From Methanobacteriota archaeon (lineage in GTDB: Archaea; Halobacteriota; Methanosarcinia; Methanosarcinales; Methanosarcinaceae), in assembly GCA_030054735.1 (NCBI GenBank), contig JASGVX010000114.1, positions 1 through 40,817 of the forward strand: a DNA stretch of 40,817 nt. The letters run 5' to 3'. Position numbers and translations under genes: made by a program. Under the pieces are notes generated by a model. That model ran no database searches. It was given only the letters and a program-made list of their open reading frames with translations, and was not told where the DNA came from. Positions within the stretch are counted from its first letter, which is position 1. Each line of letters starts with the position of its first letter. Positions 1,662-32,554 of this stretch are shown here, in pieces.

Positions 1662-2417
1662 TTAGATGTAGTATCCTCCATTTACATCTATAATCTGGCC
1701 CGTTATGTATTCCCCGTCTTCAGATACAAGGTAAGCCACTGCTCCAGCTACTTCGGATGGTTCCCCGAGTCTTCCAAGAGGTATCTGGGAAATAATTTTA
1801 TCCAGTATATCTTTTGGAATCGCTTTGACCATTTCAGTCCCTACAAATCCTGGTGCTACTACATTTACAGTTATACCTTTACTCGCAAATTCCTTTGCCA
1901 AAGTTTTTGTCAGACCAATCAATCCTGCCTTTGAGGCTGAATAGTTTGCCTGCCCAAAATTACCCATTCTTCCTATTACTGAGGAAATATTCACGATTCT
2001 GCCATATTTCCTCTCGATCATACCATCTATAACTGCTTTGCTACAATAAAACGCACCGTCGAGGTTCACAGATATGACCTCAGACCACATCTCGGGTGTC
2101 ATTTTTACGAACGACTTATCCCTGGTGATGCCTGCATTATTAACGAGGATATCAATCTTACCTAATTCCTTCACAACCTCGTCTCGCATCTTAATCACTT
2201 GCTCAAAATCGTTCACGTTAGCTTGAACTATACAGGAACGCCTGCCCATAGAGTTTATCGCATCCGAGACTTCTTCAGCGTGCTCCTTTGAGGCCTGATA
2301 GTTTATAGCTACGTCCGCACCCTCTTCTGCTAATCGCAGAGCAATAGCTCGACCAATCCCGCGTGACCCTCCGGTAACTAAAGCGACCTTACCTTCCAGA
2401 TTTTTTTTCTCTCTCAT
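1662..2417 (-). CDS. phaB: Acetoacetyl-CoA reductase (PhaB/FabG-type SDR)
   Basis: Reduces acetoacetyl-CoA to (R)-3-hydroxybutyryl-CoA with NADPH, the second step of PHB synthesis. The 251-residue protein has the full classical SDR layout: TGGSRGIG (16-23), NNAG (93-96), N118, S146, Y159 and K163 (YSASK), and a C-terminal VNGG. The GRMGNFGQANYSASKAG stretch and the VIDGM segment resemble PhaB, although FabG-type 3-oxoacyl reductases share them. The start at 2417 is chosen because AGGTGA lies five bases upstream; a longer frame reaching back to 2468 overlaps the phaA end and lacks such a site. Only five bases separate it from the phaA stop, so the two are translationally coupled. The operon context favours PhaB over a fatty-acid role, since archaea lack a standard FabF/FabH system. 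Confidence 0.9.
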   Translation of the reverse strand: MREKKNLEGKVALVTGGSRGIGRAIALRLAEEGADVAINYQASKEHAEEVSDAINSMGRRSCIVQANVNDFEQVIKMRDEVVKELGKIDILVNNAGITRDKSFVKMTPEMWSEVISVNLDGAFYCSKAVIDGMIERKYGRIVNISSVIGRMGNFGQANYSASKAGLIGLTKTLAKEFASKGITVNVVAPGFVGTEMVKAIPKDILDKIISQIPLGRLGEPSEVAGAVAYLVSEDGEYITGQIIDVNGGYYI

Positions 2418-2422
2418 AGTGC

Positions 2423-3601
2423 TCACCTTTTTACCACCATGGCAATACCCTGACCTCCTCCAATACAAAGAGATGCAAGACCATAGGTACCTTTTCTTTT
2501 ACTTAACTCATGCAAGAGTGTCACTAAGATGCGGGTACCACTGGCTCCTATTGGATGTCCAAGGGCTATAGCACCACCATTGACATTTACTTTCTCAGGG
2601 TTCAATCCAATTTCTTCCCTAACCACAATGCTCTGTGCGGCAAAGGCTTCATTGAGTTCAATCAGGTCAAGTTGATCAACGCTTATGCCCGCGTGCTCTA
2701 TGGCCTTTCTGCTTGCTCCAACTGGCCCTAAGCACATTACCTCCGGTGGTACTCCATAGAGCCCATATCCTGCAATTGTGGCCATGGGCTTAATACCCTT
2801 TTCTTCGGCTTTTTCTTCGGACATCAAAAGGACTGCTGCGGCTCCATCATTAATCCCAGATGAGTTGCCTGCAGTTACTGTGCCGCCTGCTTTAAAAGCG
2901 GGTTTTAGCTTTGCGAGGGTTTCTATTGTCGTGTTGAAGCGTGGGTATTCATCGGTATCAAAGATTACAGGTTCGCCTTTCGGCTGGGGGATTTTTACTG
3001 GGGTAATTTCATCCTTGAACCTTCCTGCCTTGATTGCTGCCTCTGCCTTATTCTGACTTTTCGCCGCGTATTCATCCTGCGCTTCCCTGGTTACATTGTA
3101 ACTTTCGGCTGTGTTCTCAGCAGTCATTCCCATATGGAAATCATGGAAGACATCCCACAAACCATCATTTATCATCAAATCAACAACTTTATCATGGCCC
3201 ATCCGTACTCCCCATCGGTTGTTTTCCAGGGCATACGGAGTATTCGACATGCATTCTGTGCCACCTGCGAGAATTACATCCGCATCTCCTAGCATAATCA
3301 TCTGAGCCCCAAGAATCACCGATTTCAGACCCGATCCGCATACTTTGTTCACACAATAGGCGGGAACCTCGTTTGGAATTCCTGCATAAATTGCAGCCTG
3401 TCGTGCCACATTCTGGCCATGACCGGCGGAAAGGACATTTCCTAAAATGACTTCTTTAACTTCATTTGTCTCAACACCTACCCGTGTTAAGGTATCCTTC
3501 AATACCAGAGAACCAAGATGTCCTGGATCAAAAGATTTCAAACTCCCCCCAAACTTTCCGATTGCAGTCCTTGTTGCTGATACAATAACTACTTTATTCA
3601 T
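2423..3601 (-). CDS. phaA: Acetyl-CoA C-acetyltransferase (bacterial-type biosynthetic thiolase, PhaA)
   Basis: Condenses two acetyl-CoA into acetoacetyl-CoA. The 392-residue length and catalytic residues match the well-studied biosynthetic thiolases: C88 in KVCGSG, H349 in [14 protein letters not shown] and C379 in CIGGG, together with NEAFAAQ. The ribosome binding site GGAAGG lies just upstream of ATG 3601. This is the bacterial-type PhaA/AtoB thiolase. It is not the archaeal thiolase that pairs with an HMG-CoA synthase and a DUF35 partner for isoprenoid synthesis, and no such partners are adjacent. It lies between the MITE-interrupted SDR remnant and phaB. Transfer from bacteria is likely (inference), but codon use here is not obviously different from its neighbours by eye. 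Confidence 0.92.
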
Positions 3602-3660
3602 ATTTTCGCCTTCCTATACTAAGTTTTGATAAAGTAATTTAATTGTTTCCTATTGGTTGC

Positions 3661-3893
3661 ACTAGTGTCAAGAACGCTTAATTATTAATCACCTATAGGG
3701 CTTACGCAATTGAACTGAAAACCATAAGCGGAAAATACTTAACCGTATAACTCAGACTAATGCTGACGAGTCCGCATGTGCCTGATTTTACTCCTCAACT
3801 GCGTAAGTCCTAACCTATTAGATCTGAATCCTTGTGCTCTGAAGGTATAATACCAAAGACAATATGCAAAAATTAAATCACAATGACACTAGT
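3661..3893. mobile_element. MITE-like element with ACTAGTGTCA ends
   Basis: A 233-bp element bounded by perfect 10-bp inverted repeats, ACTAGTGTCA at 3661-3670 and TGACACTAGT at 3884-3893. It is flanked on both sides by TTGC (3657-3660 and 3894-3897), a candidate 4-bp target duplication. It has no coding capacity. Related ends occur in the tandem element at 26484-26656 and as a lone TGACACTAGT at about 39814-39823. It truncates the SDR remnant next to phaC and carries a 115-bp MITE inside. Confidence 0.65.
3697..3811 (-). mobile_element. 115-bp MITE, copy 1 (nested)
   Basis: Ends in the inverted pair AGGRCTTACGC / GCGTAAGTCCT. It has the same length as, and is the reverse complement of, the copies at 17820-17934 and 26369-26483. 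It is nested within the ACTAGTGTCA-ended element. ACCTAT occurs immediately to the left and one base beyond the right end, a possible target duplication. Confidence 0.75.
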
Positions 3894-4009
3894 TTGCAAA
3901 AATCCCTTACCGTTTTTCTCACATCAGCGACAATAAATTTAGCTCCTTCTTTTACAAATAGATTTGCAATCTCCTTTCCAATATCTCCTCCTGCACCTTT
4001 AATAGTCAT
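3879..4009 (-). pseudogene. Truncated short-chain dehydrogenase (N-terminal remnant)
   Basis: On the minus strand, just after phaC, a frame reads KVMTIKGAGGDIGKEIANLF and continues VKEGAKFIVADV. This is the beta-alpha-beta nucleotide-binding start of a classical SDR with the GxxxGxG glycine motif. About 33 residues survive of an expected 250. The frame then runs into the MITE-like element at 3893 and stops at 3879. The remainder of the gene is absent, so insertion was accompanied by deletion. It was probably once a second 3-hydroxyacyl-CoA dehydrogenase/reductase of the PHA operon (inference). Confidence 0.7.
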
Positions 4010-4039
4010 AACTTTATTTTAAATTCTCATTTTTCGTCT

Positions 4040-5218
4040 TTATACGCGTCGCTTCCTTCTTTGCTCAATATTTTCTTTTGCAGGATTTTCTTCTACCTCT
4101 TTAGGTTTTTCTTCTACCTCTTTAGGTTTTTCTTCTCCCGTTTGATCGGGTAAAGACTTAGGCTTTAACCACTCAACAATCGTAGGGCAGACTTCTTTCT
4201 GGGATTTGGAGCCCACAAACATGCCTGCATGGCCAGTCGAGATAACCAGAGTCGTTTTATCGTCACTCGATACCACATCACTAAGCGGTTTACTTGCTTC
4301 ATTTGGAACGAGGTGATCAAATTTCCCCATCATGTTTAGCAGGGGCATGGTGATATTTTTCAAATTGATAGTTTTTCCACCAAGCATCATCTCATTTTTT
4401 ATCAGGAGGTTTTTCTGGTAACAGTCTTTTAGAAACTGTCGGTAAGCCTCGCCAGCCTGACTGGGACTGTCGAATATCCACTTCTCCATTCTAAGGAAGT
4501 TCTTCATAGTTTCTTCGTTTCGAAGCTCACATTCCTCATCATCGTCACATTCCATTCGCTCAAATAGACCAATATACTTGTCAATCATTGTCCTGCAAGG
4601 GTCTGCAAGCAGGAACCCTATATTAAGGATATCACCGGGCACTATTCCATAGTAGTCTACGATTTTGTCCACGTCCAGGCTCTTCGACCAGGCAAAAAGA
4701 ATTCCTTCATCAGTATCAAAGTCAAATGGAGCCACAAGAGTGATAAGGTTCTTCACTTTCTCAGGATGTAAGGCAGCGTACATCACAGAAAAGGTTCCTC
4801 CCTGGCATACGCCAAACAGCGTTATCTTATCTACTCCCTTCCTTTCTCTAACCTTATCCACAGCTGTATTGATATACCCGTTCACATAATCGTCAAGTGT
4901 GAGATATTTGTCCAGTCCGGAGGGATATCCCCAATCAATAAGATACACATCAAAACCTTCATCCAGTAGCCTCTTTATCACACTTTTATCGGGCTGAAGA
5001 TCAAGGATATAGTATCTGTTCACAAGAGCATACACAATAAGTATAGGAGTATGGTGTGTTTTCTCTACGGTAGGAATATAATGGAGGACTTTCATTTTAT
5101 TTTCGGTATAGATGACTTCAGAAGGTGTCATTCCAACCGAATAGTCTGGATTTTTTAAAAGTACTTCCATCCCTCGTTTGAATTTTTCGATGTCTCCCAT
5201 AAATATAGGTTTGTACAT
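4040..5218 (-). CDS. phaC: Class III PHA synthase catalytic subunit PhaC
   Basis: Polymerises 3-hydroxyacyl-CoA into polyhydroxyalkanoate at the granule surface, normally with PhaE. The 392-residue protein has an alpha/beta-hydrolase fold with the modified lipase box GVCQGG, nucleophile C138, then D301 (GKFDHLVP) and H330 (STGHAGMF). The spacing is nearly the same as in the Allochromatium class III enzyme (C149/D302/H331). Other PhaC-like segments are VYLIDWGYPS (91-100) and LITLVAPFDF. An unusual charged tail (about 355-392) carries two copies of EEKPKEVEE and ends RRKRRV. GGAGGAGATTTC precedes ATG 5218. It lies 25 bp downstream of phaE and is presumably cotranscribed with it. The length and partner gene rule out class I (about 590 aa). 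The catalytic triad is intact, so activity is plausible. Confidence 0.93.
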   Translation of the reverse strand: MYKPIFMGDIEKFKRGMEVLLKNPDYSVGMTPSEVIYTENKMKVLHYIPTVEKTHHTPILIVYALVNRYYILDLQPDKSVIKRLLDEGFDVYLIDWGYPSGLDKYLTLDDYVNGYINTAVDKVRERKGVDKITLFGVCQGGTFSVMYAALHPEKVKNLITLVAPFDFDTDEGILFAWSKSLDVDKIVDYYGIVPGDILNIGFLLADPCRTMIDKYIGLFERMECDDDEECELRNEETMKNFLRMEKWIFDSPSQAGEAYRQFLKDCYQKNLLIKNEMMLGGKTINLKNITMPLLNMMGKFDHLVPNEASKPLSDVVSSDDKTTLVISTGHAGMFVGSKSQKEVCPTIVEWLKPKSLPDQTGEEKPKEVEEKPKEVEENPAKENIEQRRKRRV

Positions 5219-5243
5219 GAAATCTCCTCCCTCAAAAAATATG

Positions 5244-5807
5244 TCATTTTTTCATTGACAGCTCTTTCACCTGACTTGACAATTCCTTAACTGTTTTCTG
5301 TAAAGAATATAGTTCTTTCTCAATTTCATCGATATCGGTTTTTGTTGGAAGATTCATCGGTTTCAGGTAAGTTTCTTCGAGCATTTCCCGGTTAATTTTT
5401 TGAAAATCTATGAAACGCGACATGAACTCCCCTAAATCCTTTGAAAAATGATCAGATTTAAGGAATTCGTGAAAAGTCTCGCTAGATATATCCATCCATA
5501 TTTTGTAGAAGTCTTTGTATTGCCCAGGACTGATGTTTCCATCTATCATCTCGCTTTCTGTCTTTTCACGAACCTTGCGCATTGCATCCATGTACACAAT
5601 CATGAAATCGGTATTGGATTTCATCCATACCGTATTGAGATTGACAAAGGCCGAGAAACCCTTCATCTGTTTTTGGAAGATCTCACGTGTAGGCCCCATA
5701 GCAGGCATCTCAACAACCCTGCCAAGGGTATTCTGATAGGTTTTTAACCAGAAATCAAAGAATTCCTCTGTGGATTTAAAAGAGGATTCAGTATTGGAAT
5801 TTTCCAT
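5244..5807 (-). CDS. phaE: PHA synthase subunit PhaE
   Basis: Non-catalytic partner that activates class III PhaC. The 187-residue protein has the diagnostic C-terminus NLPTKTDIDEIEKELYSLQ (152-170) followed by a predicted coiled coil to about residue 185, the hallmark of the PHA_synth_III_E family. The body contains two aromatic helical units, FFDFWLKTYQNTLGR (16-30) and YKDFYKIWMDISSETF (97-112), of the kind repeated in the upstream gene. It is shorter than most bacterial PhaE (300 aa or more), closer to haloarchaeal PhaE in size. GAGGT lies six bases before ATG 5807. The gaps are 32 bp to the upstream gene and 25 bp to phaC. Confidence 0.88.
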   Translation of the reverse strand: MENSNTESSFKSTEEFFDFWLKTYQNTLGRVVEMPAMGPTREIFQKQMKGFSAFVNLNTVWMKSNTDFMIVYMDAMRKVREKTESEMIDGNISPGQYKDFYKIWMDISSETFHEFLKSDHFSKDLGEFMSRFIDFQKINREMLEETYLKPMNLPTKTDIDEIEKELYSLQKTVKELSSQVKELSMKK

Positions 5808-5839
5808 ATTAATACCTCATGGATTTAATATCCATTTTA

Positions 5840-6922
5840 TTACTTCAACCACATCTTTGCCATCATGTTAAAAGTGTCTGTATATATCTTTGCCATTGAA
5901 TATTCCTTTGCCATTATTTTCATAGGCTCCATAATTTCTTTCATCGGGCTTGCTATGGGCATGTCCTCAAAGAAGCTGTCAAAGGTTTTTTCGTACATCT
6001 TTACCCAGAGAGTATAGAAATTCTCATATGCGTTTGGATCATTGCTTTGTTCTGAGATTTCTCTGGACATTTGTGCGAGTTTTTCAAGTGCTTCTATCCA
6101 GATTTTGTACACTTTCAGATAATTATTGGTGTTCTGCAAGAAGTCCTCGAAGACCTCTTTTGAAGGCTGTATGGATCGGAAATCGAAGATTTTGCCACAG
6201 GTCTTCTGGTAGGTATTCAACCAGAGATTATAAAATTCCTTATACGCTTCAGGGCTTGCGTCTTCTCGGGAGAGCTCTGACATTTTGTAGTAGAACTCCC
6301 ATATAAATTCGGCCCATGGCTCATACATCTTGACAAATAAATTCTTCCATAGCCTGGATACCTGAACAAGAGAAGCTGAATAGATATCTGGGATACATTT
6401 ATAATTTTTAAATATCTCGTTAGTGCCCATCGTGGCAGGCAGGTCAAGAAGGTCGTCGAAGATTTTCTCATACGACTTCATCCACATGGTATAGCATTCC
6501 TTATATAGTGCCGGATCTTGCTTGTCCTGAAGTACCTGTCTTGTTTTCTGGGTATTATTATCTAACTCGTCAATCCATGATCTGAAAAGTTTATTTGATT
6601 CCTCAGCGCTTGCCATGAATTTTTCGAGCAGCTCATTAGTGGATTCTGGTGTTGGTATTGGATAAAATTTACCAAAGGTATTCTGGTAAGTTTTCATCCA
6701 ATCGTTATAAAATTCCTTATACTTCTGCGGTGCAGCTTCTTGTGATATTTCTGCCGTTTTCTCATTTAGTTCTTTCATGGATTCAAGCCAGGGCTTATAT
6801 AGTGTTCGATAAGAATTCTCCCACATCTTTGAGGCAGCAATGTAGCTGTCAGCCCAGCTCATAAAAAAGTCTTTTTGTTCTTTTCCTGTTGAAGATTTAT
6901 TCTCTTCACCTTCATTCACCAT
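5840..6922 (-). CDS. PhaE-like repeat protein (PHA granule/synthase-associated)
   Basis: A 360-residue helical, acidic and aromatic-rich protein built of four imperfect repeats starting near Y68, Y140, Y227 and Y299, plus a partial unit at 17-40. The repeat motif is approximately Y-K-E-F/C-Y-x2-W-x3-Y-x2-T/I-F/C, followed by a proline-containing linker and a second helix. The same unit occurs twice in the neighbouring PhaE, which ties the two proteins together. It lacks the LPT(K/R) and coiled-coil PhaE signature at its C-terminus. It has no signal peptide or membrane segment. It is the first gene of the cluster, with GAGGAG upstream of ATG 6922. It may be a duplicated and expanded PhaE, a second synthase activator or a phasin-like granule protein; the sequence does not decide. 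Confidence 0.75.
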   Translation of the reverse strand: MVNEGEENKSSTGKEQKDFFMSWADSYIAASKMWENSYRTLYKPWLESMKELNEKTAEISQEAAPQKYKEFYNDWMKTYQNTFGKFYPIPTPESTNELLEKFMASAEESNKLFRSWIDELDNNTQKTRQVLQDKQDPALYKECYTMWMKSYEKIFDDLLDLPATMGTNEIFKNYKCIPDIYSASLVQVSRLWKNLFVKMYEPWAEFIWEFYYKMSELSREDASPEAYKEFYNLWLNTYQKTCGKIFDFRSIQPSKEVFEDFLQNTNNYLKVYKIWIEALEKLAQMSREISEQSNDPNAYENFYTLWVKMYEKTFDSFFEDMPIASPMKEIMEPMKIMAKEYSMAKIYTDTFNMMAKMWLK

Positions 6923-7260
6923 AGATTTTCACTCCTCTTTCTTTACCTTTCACTGACAATTCCATTGAATTGAACAGGCCCTCTCATTTCATCCACTCCG
7001 CTATATGAAATGAAGAAGTAAATGAAGAATTATTATTCAGTACTGCTAAATAACTTATTTTGTTATTTAATTTTAAAGCAGTATACTTAATTTGCTGTAA
7101 AATTATAAATATCAAAAAATTATTGTATCGAAAATCCAACATCATGCGGTCAATTTATCTTGCAAGATACAAGAAATTGCCTTCAAATTTACAGCAAATT
7201 CGTAACACTGTCATTATTATATCATTTGTCTAAAATCACAGAACATCTACACTAGCTATT
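6923..7260. promoter_or_regulatory. Promoter/operator region of the pha cluster
   Basis: AT-rich leader upstream of the first pha gene. It contains a nested dyad: outer arms AGTACTGCT (7039-7047) and AGCAGTATACT (7077-7087), inner arms AAATAAC (7048-7054) and GTTATTT (7062-7068). A TTTAAAAT stretch that could serve as a TATA box overlaps it. Further out, 7089-7104 and 7186-7200 form a second inverted pair around TTTGCTGTAAA. The dyad is a candidate regulator-binding site; no regulator gene is adjacent. Confidence 0.4.
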
Positions 7261-7893
7261 ATGACCTGTATCTATTTAATTCATTCGTTCATCGGCAATA
7301 TCGAGTTAACGATTCAACCTGCATTCGGTAATACTATGTATTATTTCAAAATCGGAATCAACAAAAATTATGAAAAATTAAATGTCGATCTGCCGACAGA
7401 AGGTTTGAAATTAAATTTGCACCATTCCTTAGCATCCGTGATCGAAGTCACATTTGAGCCTTCGATGGCAATTAACTGGTTAGTTTCATCACGGTTTCGA
7501 AGAACCAAAATAAGTACAACCTTAATACCCAGGATAATGATGATGTTCATAGATAAAAAAGGGAAGGAAAAAAGTACTTTCATTTCTTTGTGCCTGTTAT
7601 TTGAAGAATTTCATATGCGTTCATATTATCTTGACTATGCCTGAAGATACTGATTTATTCTTTAATTATTATTTAATATATATAATCTCTTTACATATTT
7701 ATGCTCTCTGCTACTCAAGTTTACTTGTTCTGATCCATTAGCTCCCATACTTGAGAGATTTATTTACCTTCAAACTAATTTTATAAGCTCACACGCATCT
7801 GTTTCTTTTTACCGTAACCTTTATGTATTGATTAACTCAATTTAACTTTAGTTAATTCTACTAATCTTTACTTGATATCTTTGCGGTGATCCT
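7261..7893. other. Intergenic region between the divergent pha and cbi units
   Basis: Open frames occur on both strands (7261-7644 plus, 7368-7583 minus). Neither has a recognisable domain or a ribosome binding site, and both run into a dispersed repeat copy at 7571-7625. They look like decayed or chance frames. Downstream of 7650 the sequence is AT-rich and must hold the cbiM promoter, but I see no clear riboswitch or NikR-type dyad. Confidence 0.45.
7571..7625 (-). repeat. Hairpin-bearing dispersed repeat, copy 2 (partial)
   Basis: Read on the minus strand it carries the same CTTCAAATAACAGGCAC core and ATGAAAGT arm as the copies near 1.5, 14.7 and 25.3 kb. The second arm of the hairpin is missing. 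Confidence 0.55.
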
Positions 7894-8601
7894 ATGCATA
7901 TAATGGAAGGTTTTTTACCTGCTCCATGGTGGCAGGCCTGGTTTGCAGTATCAATCCCTGTGATACTGTACGGCATCTATAAAATGAATAAGCTGGTGAG
8001 CGAAAAACGAGAGATACTGCCTTTACTTGCAGTCGCAGGTGCGTTTATTTTCGTTCTATCTTCCCTCAAACTTCCTTCAGTAGTGGGAAGCTGTTCTCAC
8101 CCCACAGGAACCGGGGTTGCAGCAATTATATTCGGTCCAGCAATATCCGCAGTGCTTGGAACTATCGTGCTTCTCTACCAGGCACTTTTCCTTGCGCACG
8201 GAGGGATTACAACCCTTGGAGCAAATGTCTTTTCCATGGGCATTGTGGGCCCGATTGTGGCTTATCTTATCTATAAGGCAGGAATGAAAGCAAAGCTCAA
8301 TTTCTATGCTGTGGTTTTCCTTGCTACAGCTTTTGGGGACTGGGCAACTTATGTGGTCACTTCTGTGCAACTTGCCCTTGCATTTCCTGCTGGAGATGTG
8401 CTTACCTTCGCAGGCTTCATGAGCTCGTTTGGCAAATTTGCTACAGTCTTTGCAGTCACCCAGGTGCCTCTTGCTATCATGGAAGGAGCTCTCAGTGCTT
8501 TGCTCTTCAAGTATGTGGTCAATGTCAAGAGTGATATACTGGTCGAAATGAAAGTGATTGAAGATGCTGCTGTGAAAAAGCTGAGAGGGACTTCCGTATG
8601 A
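7894..8601 (+). CDS. cbiM: Cobalt ECF transporter S component CbiM
   Basis: Substrate-binding membrane subunit of a group I energy-coupling-factor transporter for Co2+. The protein starts MHIMEGFLP; the free N-terminal Met-His is the known metal ligand set, so the start is well fixed, and GGTGAT lies just upstream. The 235 residues form several hydrophobic segments and contain GSCSHPTGTG (about 66-75) and the HGG loop (LAHGGITTLGANVFSMG). The gene overlaps cbiN by four bases (ATGA). In a methanogen the imported cobalt feeds corrinoid methyltransferases. Nickel is an alternative substrate because CbiM and NikM are close relatives, but the following separate CbiN points to cobalt. Confidence 0.94.
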   Translation: MHIMEGFLPAPWWQAWFAVSIPVILYGIYKMNKLVSEKREILPLLAVAGAFIFVLSSLKLPSVVGSCSHPTGTGVAAIIFGPAISAVLGTIVLLYQALFLAHGGITTLGANVFSMGIVGPIVAYLIYKAGMKAKLNFYAVVFLATAFGDWATYVVTSVQLALAFPAGDVLTFAGFMSSFGKFATVFAVTQVPLAIMEGALSALLFKYVVNVKSDILVEMKVIEDAAVKKLRGTSV

Positions 8602-30132: not shown

Positions 30133-31134
<1,002 letters not shown>

Positions 31135-31137
31135 TCG

Positions 31138-31279
31138 AAAACGTTTACTAAGGAATGATGAAAATATAACTTCTAAATTTCATTTTGGGAATTGATCTAT
31201 AGTTCCATTTCCCTCCAATAACAATTCTTGGTAACAAACCCCTTGATATTATATTTGAATCATTCCTAAGCGTTTTTTT
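31138..31279 (+). terminator. Long-range stem between pta and ackA
   Basis: The sequence just after pta (31138-31160, containing CTAAGGAATGAT) can pair with 31257-31279 (ATCATTCCTAAGCG), giving about 12 paired bases around a loop of about 100 bases and ending in T7. It may partially terminate or process the transcript between pta and ackA. No known function is documented here. Confidence 0.4.
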
Positions 31280-31354
31280 AACCTTCATACATATTAATAA
31301 TTATCCTGAAGATCTAAGTTGATTGAAAAATAATGTATAAACTGGAGTTTAGAC

Positions 31355-32554
31355 ATGAAAGTACTGGTTATAAACGCAGGAAGTTCCTCTCTCAAATATC
31401 AATTAATTGATATGAAAACTGAGTCCGCTCTTGCAGTGGGGCTTTGTGAGAGGATAGGCATCGACAACTCGATCATCACCCAGAAGAGGTCTGACGGCAA
31501 GAAGCTGGAAAAACAGACCGATCTCCCAACCCATAAGGTTGCCCTTGAAGAAGTCGTCAAGGCTCTTACAGATTCGGAGTTTGGTGTCATTAAAAGCATG
31601 GATGAAATCAATGCAGTAGGGCACAGGGTTGTGCACGGTGGGGAAAAGTTCACAACTTCTGCTTTATATGATAAAGGTGTAGGACAGGCTATTGAGGATT
31701 GTTTTGAACTGGCACCTCTCCATAACCCGCCAAACATGATGGGAATTACAGCCTGTGAAGAGATCATGCCTGGAACACCTATGGTTGTTGTTTTTGACAC
31801 AGCATTCCATCAGACCATGCCTGCATATGCCTACATATATGCTCTTCCGTACGCTCTGTACGAGAAGTATGGGATCAGAAAATACGGTTTCCACGGGACT
31901 TCACACAAGTATGTTGCAGGAAGAGCTGCCGCTATGCTGGGGAAGCCCGAAGAAGACTGCAAGATTATCACCTGCCACCTTGGAAACGGTTCAAGTATTA
32001 CAGCAGTGAGAGGTGGAAAATCGGTTGAGACAAGCATGGGCTTTACCCCACTTGAAGGTGTTGCAATGGGTACCAGGTGCGGCTGGATTGATCCAGCAGT
32101 AGTTCCTTTCATTATGGAAAAGGAAGGCCTTACAACCCGTGAAGTCGATACCCTCATGAACAAGAAGTCCGGTGTGCTTGGAGTTTCCGGCCTCAGCAAC
32201 GACTTCAGAGACCTGGATGAAGCAGCTTCGCAGGGCAACGAGAGAGCAGAACTTGCCCTTGAGATTTTTGCATACAAGGTCAAGAAGGTCATTGGTGAGT
32301 ATTTAGCCGTGCTCAACGGTGCAGATGCGATAGTCTTTACTGCAGGTATCGGAGAAAACAGCGCAAGTATCAGAAAGAGAATTCTTGCCGATCTTGATAA
32401 TCTTGGCATGAAAATCGATGAAGAGAAGAACAAGATCAGAGGCGAGGAAATCGATATAAGCACTCCTGATTCAAAAATCAGGGTTCTTGTCATCCCGACC
32501 AATGAAGAACTTGCCATTGCAAGGGAAACAAAAGAAATCTGTGAGTTGAAGTAA
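31355..32554 (+). CDS. ackA: Acetate kinase AckA
   Basis: Phosphorylates acetate with ATP to acetyl phosphate. The 399-residue protein contains all catalytic residues at their M. thermophila positions: N7, R91, D148, H180, R241 and E384, within [46 protein letters not shown] and the C-terminal segment. The ATG at 31355 follows GGAG seven bases upstream. With Pta it feeds acetyl-CoA to the decarbonylase/synthase for methanogenesis. In the reverse direction it can excrete acetate. It is about nine residues shorter at the C-terminus than the M. thermophila enzyme. Confidence 0.97.

Follow-up and report, generated by a model that had tools for sequence, protein, structure and literature searches.

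In H. mediterranei, the PHA genes are arranged in the order phaJ-phaR-phaP-phaE-phaC, and PhaP is the predominant granule phasin (PMC10948481). The Haloferax larsenii locus likewise has PhaP encoded directly upstream of phaE. Haloarchaeal PhaP, like other phasins, is thought to be helical. A survey of 427 proteomes found complete PHA synthesis pathways in halophiles only (PMC6355812). PHA storage is experimentally supported for Ca. Methanoperedens, with phaC and phaE among its highest transcripts (PMC11337218), and a pangenome study reported that PhaE, unlike PhaC, forms no gene cluster in Ca. Methanoperedens (PMC8561730). Searching the open-access literature, we found no description of a tail-less, duplicated PhaE or of a Methanosarcina PHA operon.

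The stretch of DNA analysed here (the window; 40,817 nucleotides) comes from a genome (2.88 Mb, 99.4% complete, 0.04% contaminated) that we place in Methanosarcina on the basis of the other genomes of its group and of Methanosarcina-type genes in the window, and it carries a full PHA pathway, consisting of PhaA, PhaB, PhaC, PhaE and a repeat protein, at positions 1662-6922. All five genes are on the minus strand, and the first (5840..6922) encodes a 360-residue protein that we call the PhaE-repeat protein on the basis of its ORF, the comparison of its units and its homologues. The ORF is genuine, with an ATG at 6922, a stop at 5840 and a GAGGAG-type ribosome site. It is followed after 32 nt by phaE (5244..5807), which encodes a 187-residue protein with two helical units and a C-terminal tail (LPTKTDI...) that matches PF09712 over profile positions 151-310 (E 7.9e-21), and phaC (4040..5218) begins 25 nt beyond phaE, placing the repeat gene beside a class III PHA synthase gene. 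The 392-residue PhaC contains a GVCQGG box and KFD and GHAGM motifs and scores 460.5 bits against TIGR01836 (cut-off 365.3). The last two genes encode a PhaA-type acetyl-CoA acetyltransferase (thiolase; 2423..3601), assigned by family profile scans, and a PhaB/FabG-type acetoacetyl-CoA reductase of the SDR type (1662..2426; TIGR01829, 319.6 bits, cut-off 302.1). The first-pass annotation, made from the sequence alone, had placed the repeat protein at the head of a PHA cluster, and the identification of PhaE, PhaC, thiolase and acetoacetyl-CoA reductase-like SDR genes downstream confirms that placement. Because the cluster shares its contig with Methanosarcina-type genes (phosphotransacetylase and acetate kinase at 30133-32554, cobalt transport, RadA), contamination is unlikely. 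A cbiM operon adjoins the PhaE-repeat gene divergently (window 6922-7894).

The PhaE-repeat gene thus holds the slot, directly upstream of phaE, that phaP holds in haloarchaea. The two proteins, however, have no sequence similarity (the Haloferax larsenii PhaP scored 1.6 bits, no match, against a profile of the repeat family), and they differ in length (360 versus 154 residues) and in construction, since the repeat protein is built from what appear to be PhaE-derived repeats.

Four related units make up most of the 360 residues: unit 1 (residues 22-100; 6623..6859), unit 2 (residues 101-180; 6383..6622), unit 3 (residues 184-260; 6143..6373) and unit 4 (residues 261-345; 5888..6142), all encoded on the minus strand. 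The four unit starts proposed earlier, at Y68, Y140, Y227 and Y299, were borne out. All six unit pairs score far above shuffled sequences (z 12-24), with the best scores between units 1 and 3 (z 23.8) and between units 2 and 4 (z 21.4). Alignment of the first half of the protein (residues 21-183) with the second (184-360) gives a score of 304 (z = 35) against a background of 500 shuffles with a mean of 39 and a maximum of 76. It had also been claimed that the units occur twice in PhaE, and both units of the neighbouring PhaE indeed match repeat units (z 6-15): the first PhaE unit matches unit 3 (z 15.5) and unit 1 (z 11.5), and the second matches unit 1 (z 11.7) and unit 4 (z 10.2), while the two PhaE units compared directly with one another give a z of only 0.6. 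Each of the six types of unit, in a tree built from 74 units, falls on one side of a branch that splits units 1 and 3 and PhaE unit 1 from units 2 and 4 and PhaE unit 2, a topology based on few columns that is suggestive. These data are best read as a duplicated pair, with units 1 and 3 of the PhaE unit-1 type and units 2 and 4 of the PhaE unit-2 type, so that the earlier description of tandem units stands in a refined form, as a two-by-two arrangement rather than four equal repeats. The simplest history would be one tandem duplication of the PhaE two-unit module that predated diversification of the family.

Relationship to PhaE was evident by BLASTP of the PhaE-repeat protein against the neighbouring PhaE (E 9e-15) and by profile-profile comparison, which had been set beforehand as the decisive analysis and in which 18 family relatives aligned with 16 PhaE sequences at a probability of 98.5% (hhalign, E 1.6e-15). 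PF09712 matched 48 of 56 relatives at E <= 1e-3 (best 1.7e-14), many of them over the cut-off, and 17 of 18 in a smaller set; TIGR01834 matched 28 of the 56. The window protein itself reached only 12.6 and 8.6 bits against PF09712 (cut-off 25.7), and Pfam and NCBIfam scans with this protein alone yielded nothing above cut-off, with matches at the level of chance. A search of PDB sequences with it found nothing. The family profile also recognised Haloferax larsenii PhaE (E 2.9e-8, in a search of 6 sequences with Z set to 1). The C-terminal PhaE segment, corresponding to PF09712 profile positions of about 255-310, is the clearest difference: the motif LP[TS][KR]x[ED] is present in 39 of 42 short PhaE proteins and in none of 56 members of the repeat family, in agreement with the earlier statement that the repeat protein lacks the C-terminal PhaE signature. 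Hence the protein resembles PhaE (PF09712/TIGR01834) in its two-unit helical module, in its operon with PhaC and in the profile matches of its relatives, but it differs from PhaE in having the module doubled to four units, in lacking the C-terminal segment and in its gene setting, beside a normal PhaE, frequently as multiple copies, and elsewhere by itself. Calling it a second PhaE, as the first-pass annotation did, is apt with respect to ancestry, although the protein lacks a feature that defines PhaE, the C-terminal segment. On these comparisons, it is best read as a PhaE paralogue that arose by tandem duplication of the helical module and is without the C-terminal tail.

AlphaFold2 predicts an all-helical PhaE-repeat protein composed of four units, each a long helix followed by a short one, in a model of modest confidence (pLDDT 68.8, pTM 0.42), and it predicts similar units plus a C-terminal helix for PhaE (pLDDT 81.9). 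Foldseek and VIA-align searches with the predicted models returned generic, unrelated helical bundles (Z about 8 or lower) that are not interpretable. The helices of the repeat protein are strongly amphipathic, with a mean moment of 0.337 compared with 0.200 +/- 0.017 for shuffled sequences, but the moment of PhaE is similar (0.313), and amphipathicity therefore does not discriminate. Aromatic residues constitute 17% of the PhaE-repeat protein. Bacterial phasins (PF09361, Phasin_2; PF05597, Phasin) are also amphipathic and all-helical, and Phasin_2 matches 3 of the 56 relatives weakly (best 5.3e-6); the window protein, however, is matched by neither profile up to E 10, and its length and repeat architecture differ from those of bacterial phasins. 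PF09361 had no match in the source genome, and PF05597 gave a short match of 33.9 bits elsewhere in that genome (L162/L163, G000:C121:37414-37713). The same PF05597 search was weakly positive in many control genomes, including that of M. acetivorans, and the match on C121 may be unrelated to PHA.

We propose, with a probability of roughly 0.5, that the PhaE-repeat protein is a PhaE-derived, phasin-like scaffold of the granule surface and a third component of an archaeal class III PHA system. We infer granule binding, packing with PhaE and synthase tethering: helical units that are amphipathic and rich in aromatic residues would pack both on the polymer and on their counterparts in PhaE, and the protein would in this way coat the granule and hold the PhaE-PhaC synthase there. 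Of the two roles suggested earlier, synthase activator and granule coat, we favour the coat or scaffold because the C-terminal PhaE segment has been lost, because copies repeatedly occur alone and because phasin genes occupy the same slot in haloarchaeal operons.

A close rival, which we consider somewhat less probable, is that the PhaE-repeat protein serves the class III synthase as an obligate third subunit, using its PhaE-like helices to join PhaE and PhaC in a single complex and activating or shaping the enzyme instead of coating the granule. Descent from PhaE and strict synteny with PhaE and PhaC would fit this role. Members of this conserved family come almost exclusively from Ca. Methanoperedens, which are methane-oxidising archaea. 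Of 68 loci recovered by scanning 84,980 species genomes, nearly all belong to this group; the others come from an ANME-2 bin, from a few bins with bacterial labels and from L077, a SPRUCE peat bin labelled Methanomicrobiales. Among 393 genomes of the phylum, the repeat protein was found in the source genome, in Methanoperedenaceae and in one other genome (G240), to which the L077 locus probably belongs. Its presence follows that of PhaC, a pattern that fits either reading: of 34 Methanoperedenaceae genomes, 25 encode the two proteins, 7 lack the pair, 2 incomplete ones have the repeat protein without PhaC, and no genome has PhaC alone. Gene order is almost invariant, with short gaps, and linkage of this tightness is what a synthase subunit would be expected to show; in Methanoperedenaceae, one to three repeat genes lie upstream, always on the 5' side, of 48 of 53 genes for class III PhaC scoring over the cut-off, and a repeat gene directly precedes 50 of 52 short phaE genes. 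The contigs of the five other PhaC contain no PF09712 match and thus no PhaE nearby. Methanoperedens also has another type of class III-like PhaC, which lies near neither PhaE nor the repeat protein (G152:C2:467215, G154:C6:69323, G163:C118:34864, G179:C1:39722 and G153:C143:19378). The archaeal repeat protein and PhaE are also present in bins labelled Nitrospirae and Dehalococcoidales (L088 and L143, the latter with PhaC as well), both of which are probably mis-binned, although the branches of L143 are long.

The missing C-terminal segment in every family member argues against the subunit, and so do copy number and location. Near-full-length repeat copies number 81 compared with 53 PhaC, with up to 3 in tandem in Methanoperedenaceae, and 23 of the 81 have no class III PhaC within 4.5 kb. 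Although some of these are contig-edge cases, at least 15 are intact, stand-alone copies with long flanks of unrelated genes and with neither PhaE nor PhaC nearby. In a tree of 66 proteins, the stand-alone state has many separate origins (13 changes, of which well-supported branches force at least 10), ruling out a single specialised clade of stand-alone proteins. Retention of such copies outside the operon of their partners fits a phasin-like granule protein that is supplied in trans. A few stand-alone copies directly precede a gene for a PhaB-like reductase. Two others (525 and 557 aa) are greatly extended at the N terminus and lie just ahead of cobalt transport genes resembling cbiM/cbiQ/cbiO (L126:4482-9310 and L129:4386-9301). 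Some second copies within operons are broken or shortened (L098:6001-6810 and L105:4992-6083), which suggests gain and decay of tandem repeat genes. Returning to the scaffold, we tentatively extend it to a general scheme, itself short of an even chance, in which Methanoperedens and a few methanogens would use a three-part class III system, with a PhaE-derived repeat protein replacing the phasin, its units packing with those of PhaE and holding PhaE-PhaC at the granule.

It is unlikely that the PhaE-repeat protein is instead the N-terminal part of a split, bacterial-type long PhaE, such that the long and short proteins together equal one bacterial PhaE. The match of the short PhaE to PF09712 is confined to the second half of the profile (151-310), and some long relatives match positions 2-139, as a split would predict; most long relatives, however, match positions 112-255, overlapping the coverage of the short PhaE, and the unit tree pairs units 1 and 3 with PhaE unit 1 and units 2 and 4 with PhaE unit 2, as for a duplicate. 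The bacterial plasmid PHA loci that we examined contain short forms of PhaE only.

That the repeat gene is merely carried along in the source methanogen with no PHA function is very improbable, even though just one Methanosarcina genome of 31 has the cluster, since the gene keeps its full reading frame, ribosome site and conserved unit residues, the PhaC motifs are intact, and the distant peat methanogen represented by L077 has the identical five-gene order at 68-78% identity.

The distribution of the cluster within Methanosarcina (class III PhaC exceeds the cut-off in the source genome alone among the 31) does not support vertical inheritance in this genus, and in the PhaC tree the window protein has the peat Methanomicrobiales copy as its partner (97/87), the two lying at the margin of the Methanoperedens sequences. 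The cluster closest to that of the window is likewise the one in L077. Across 112 Methanosarcinaceae genomes, the repeat protein was found only in the source genome and in one other Methanosarcina genome, G094, where a relative with 44% identity is encoded on a short contig. This relative (L076:804-2303) is 499 aa long, has three N-terminal repeats of the form SSWWEERKxIGQPSPxDQEK and is not followed by PhaE on that contig. G094 also contains an open frame of 918 aa, beginning at a contig end (L164:3-2759), in which part of a PhaC-like hydrolase (GMCQGG) is in frame with an apparent DNA polymerase D small subunit, representing either a fusion or an assembly chimera.

Our analysis indicates that profile annotation files two different proteins as 'PhaE', and treating the tail-less repeat protein apart from true PhaE may partly explain why PhaE lacks a pangenome cluster. 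The repeat protein is a concrete candidate for an archaeal granule coat outside the haloarchaea and a case of how a synthase subunit may become a structural protein by duplication. For the source Methanosarcina, the presence of a complete PHA operon makes carbon storage testable.
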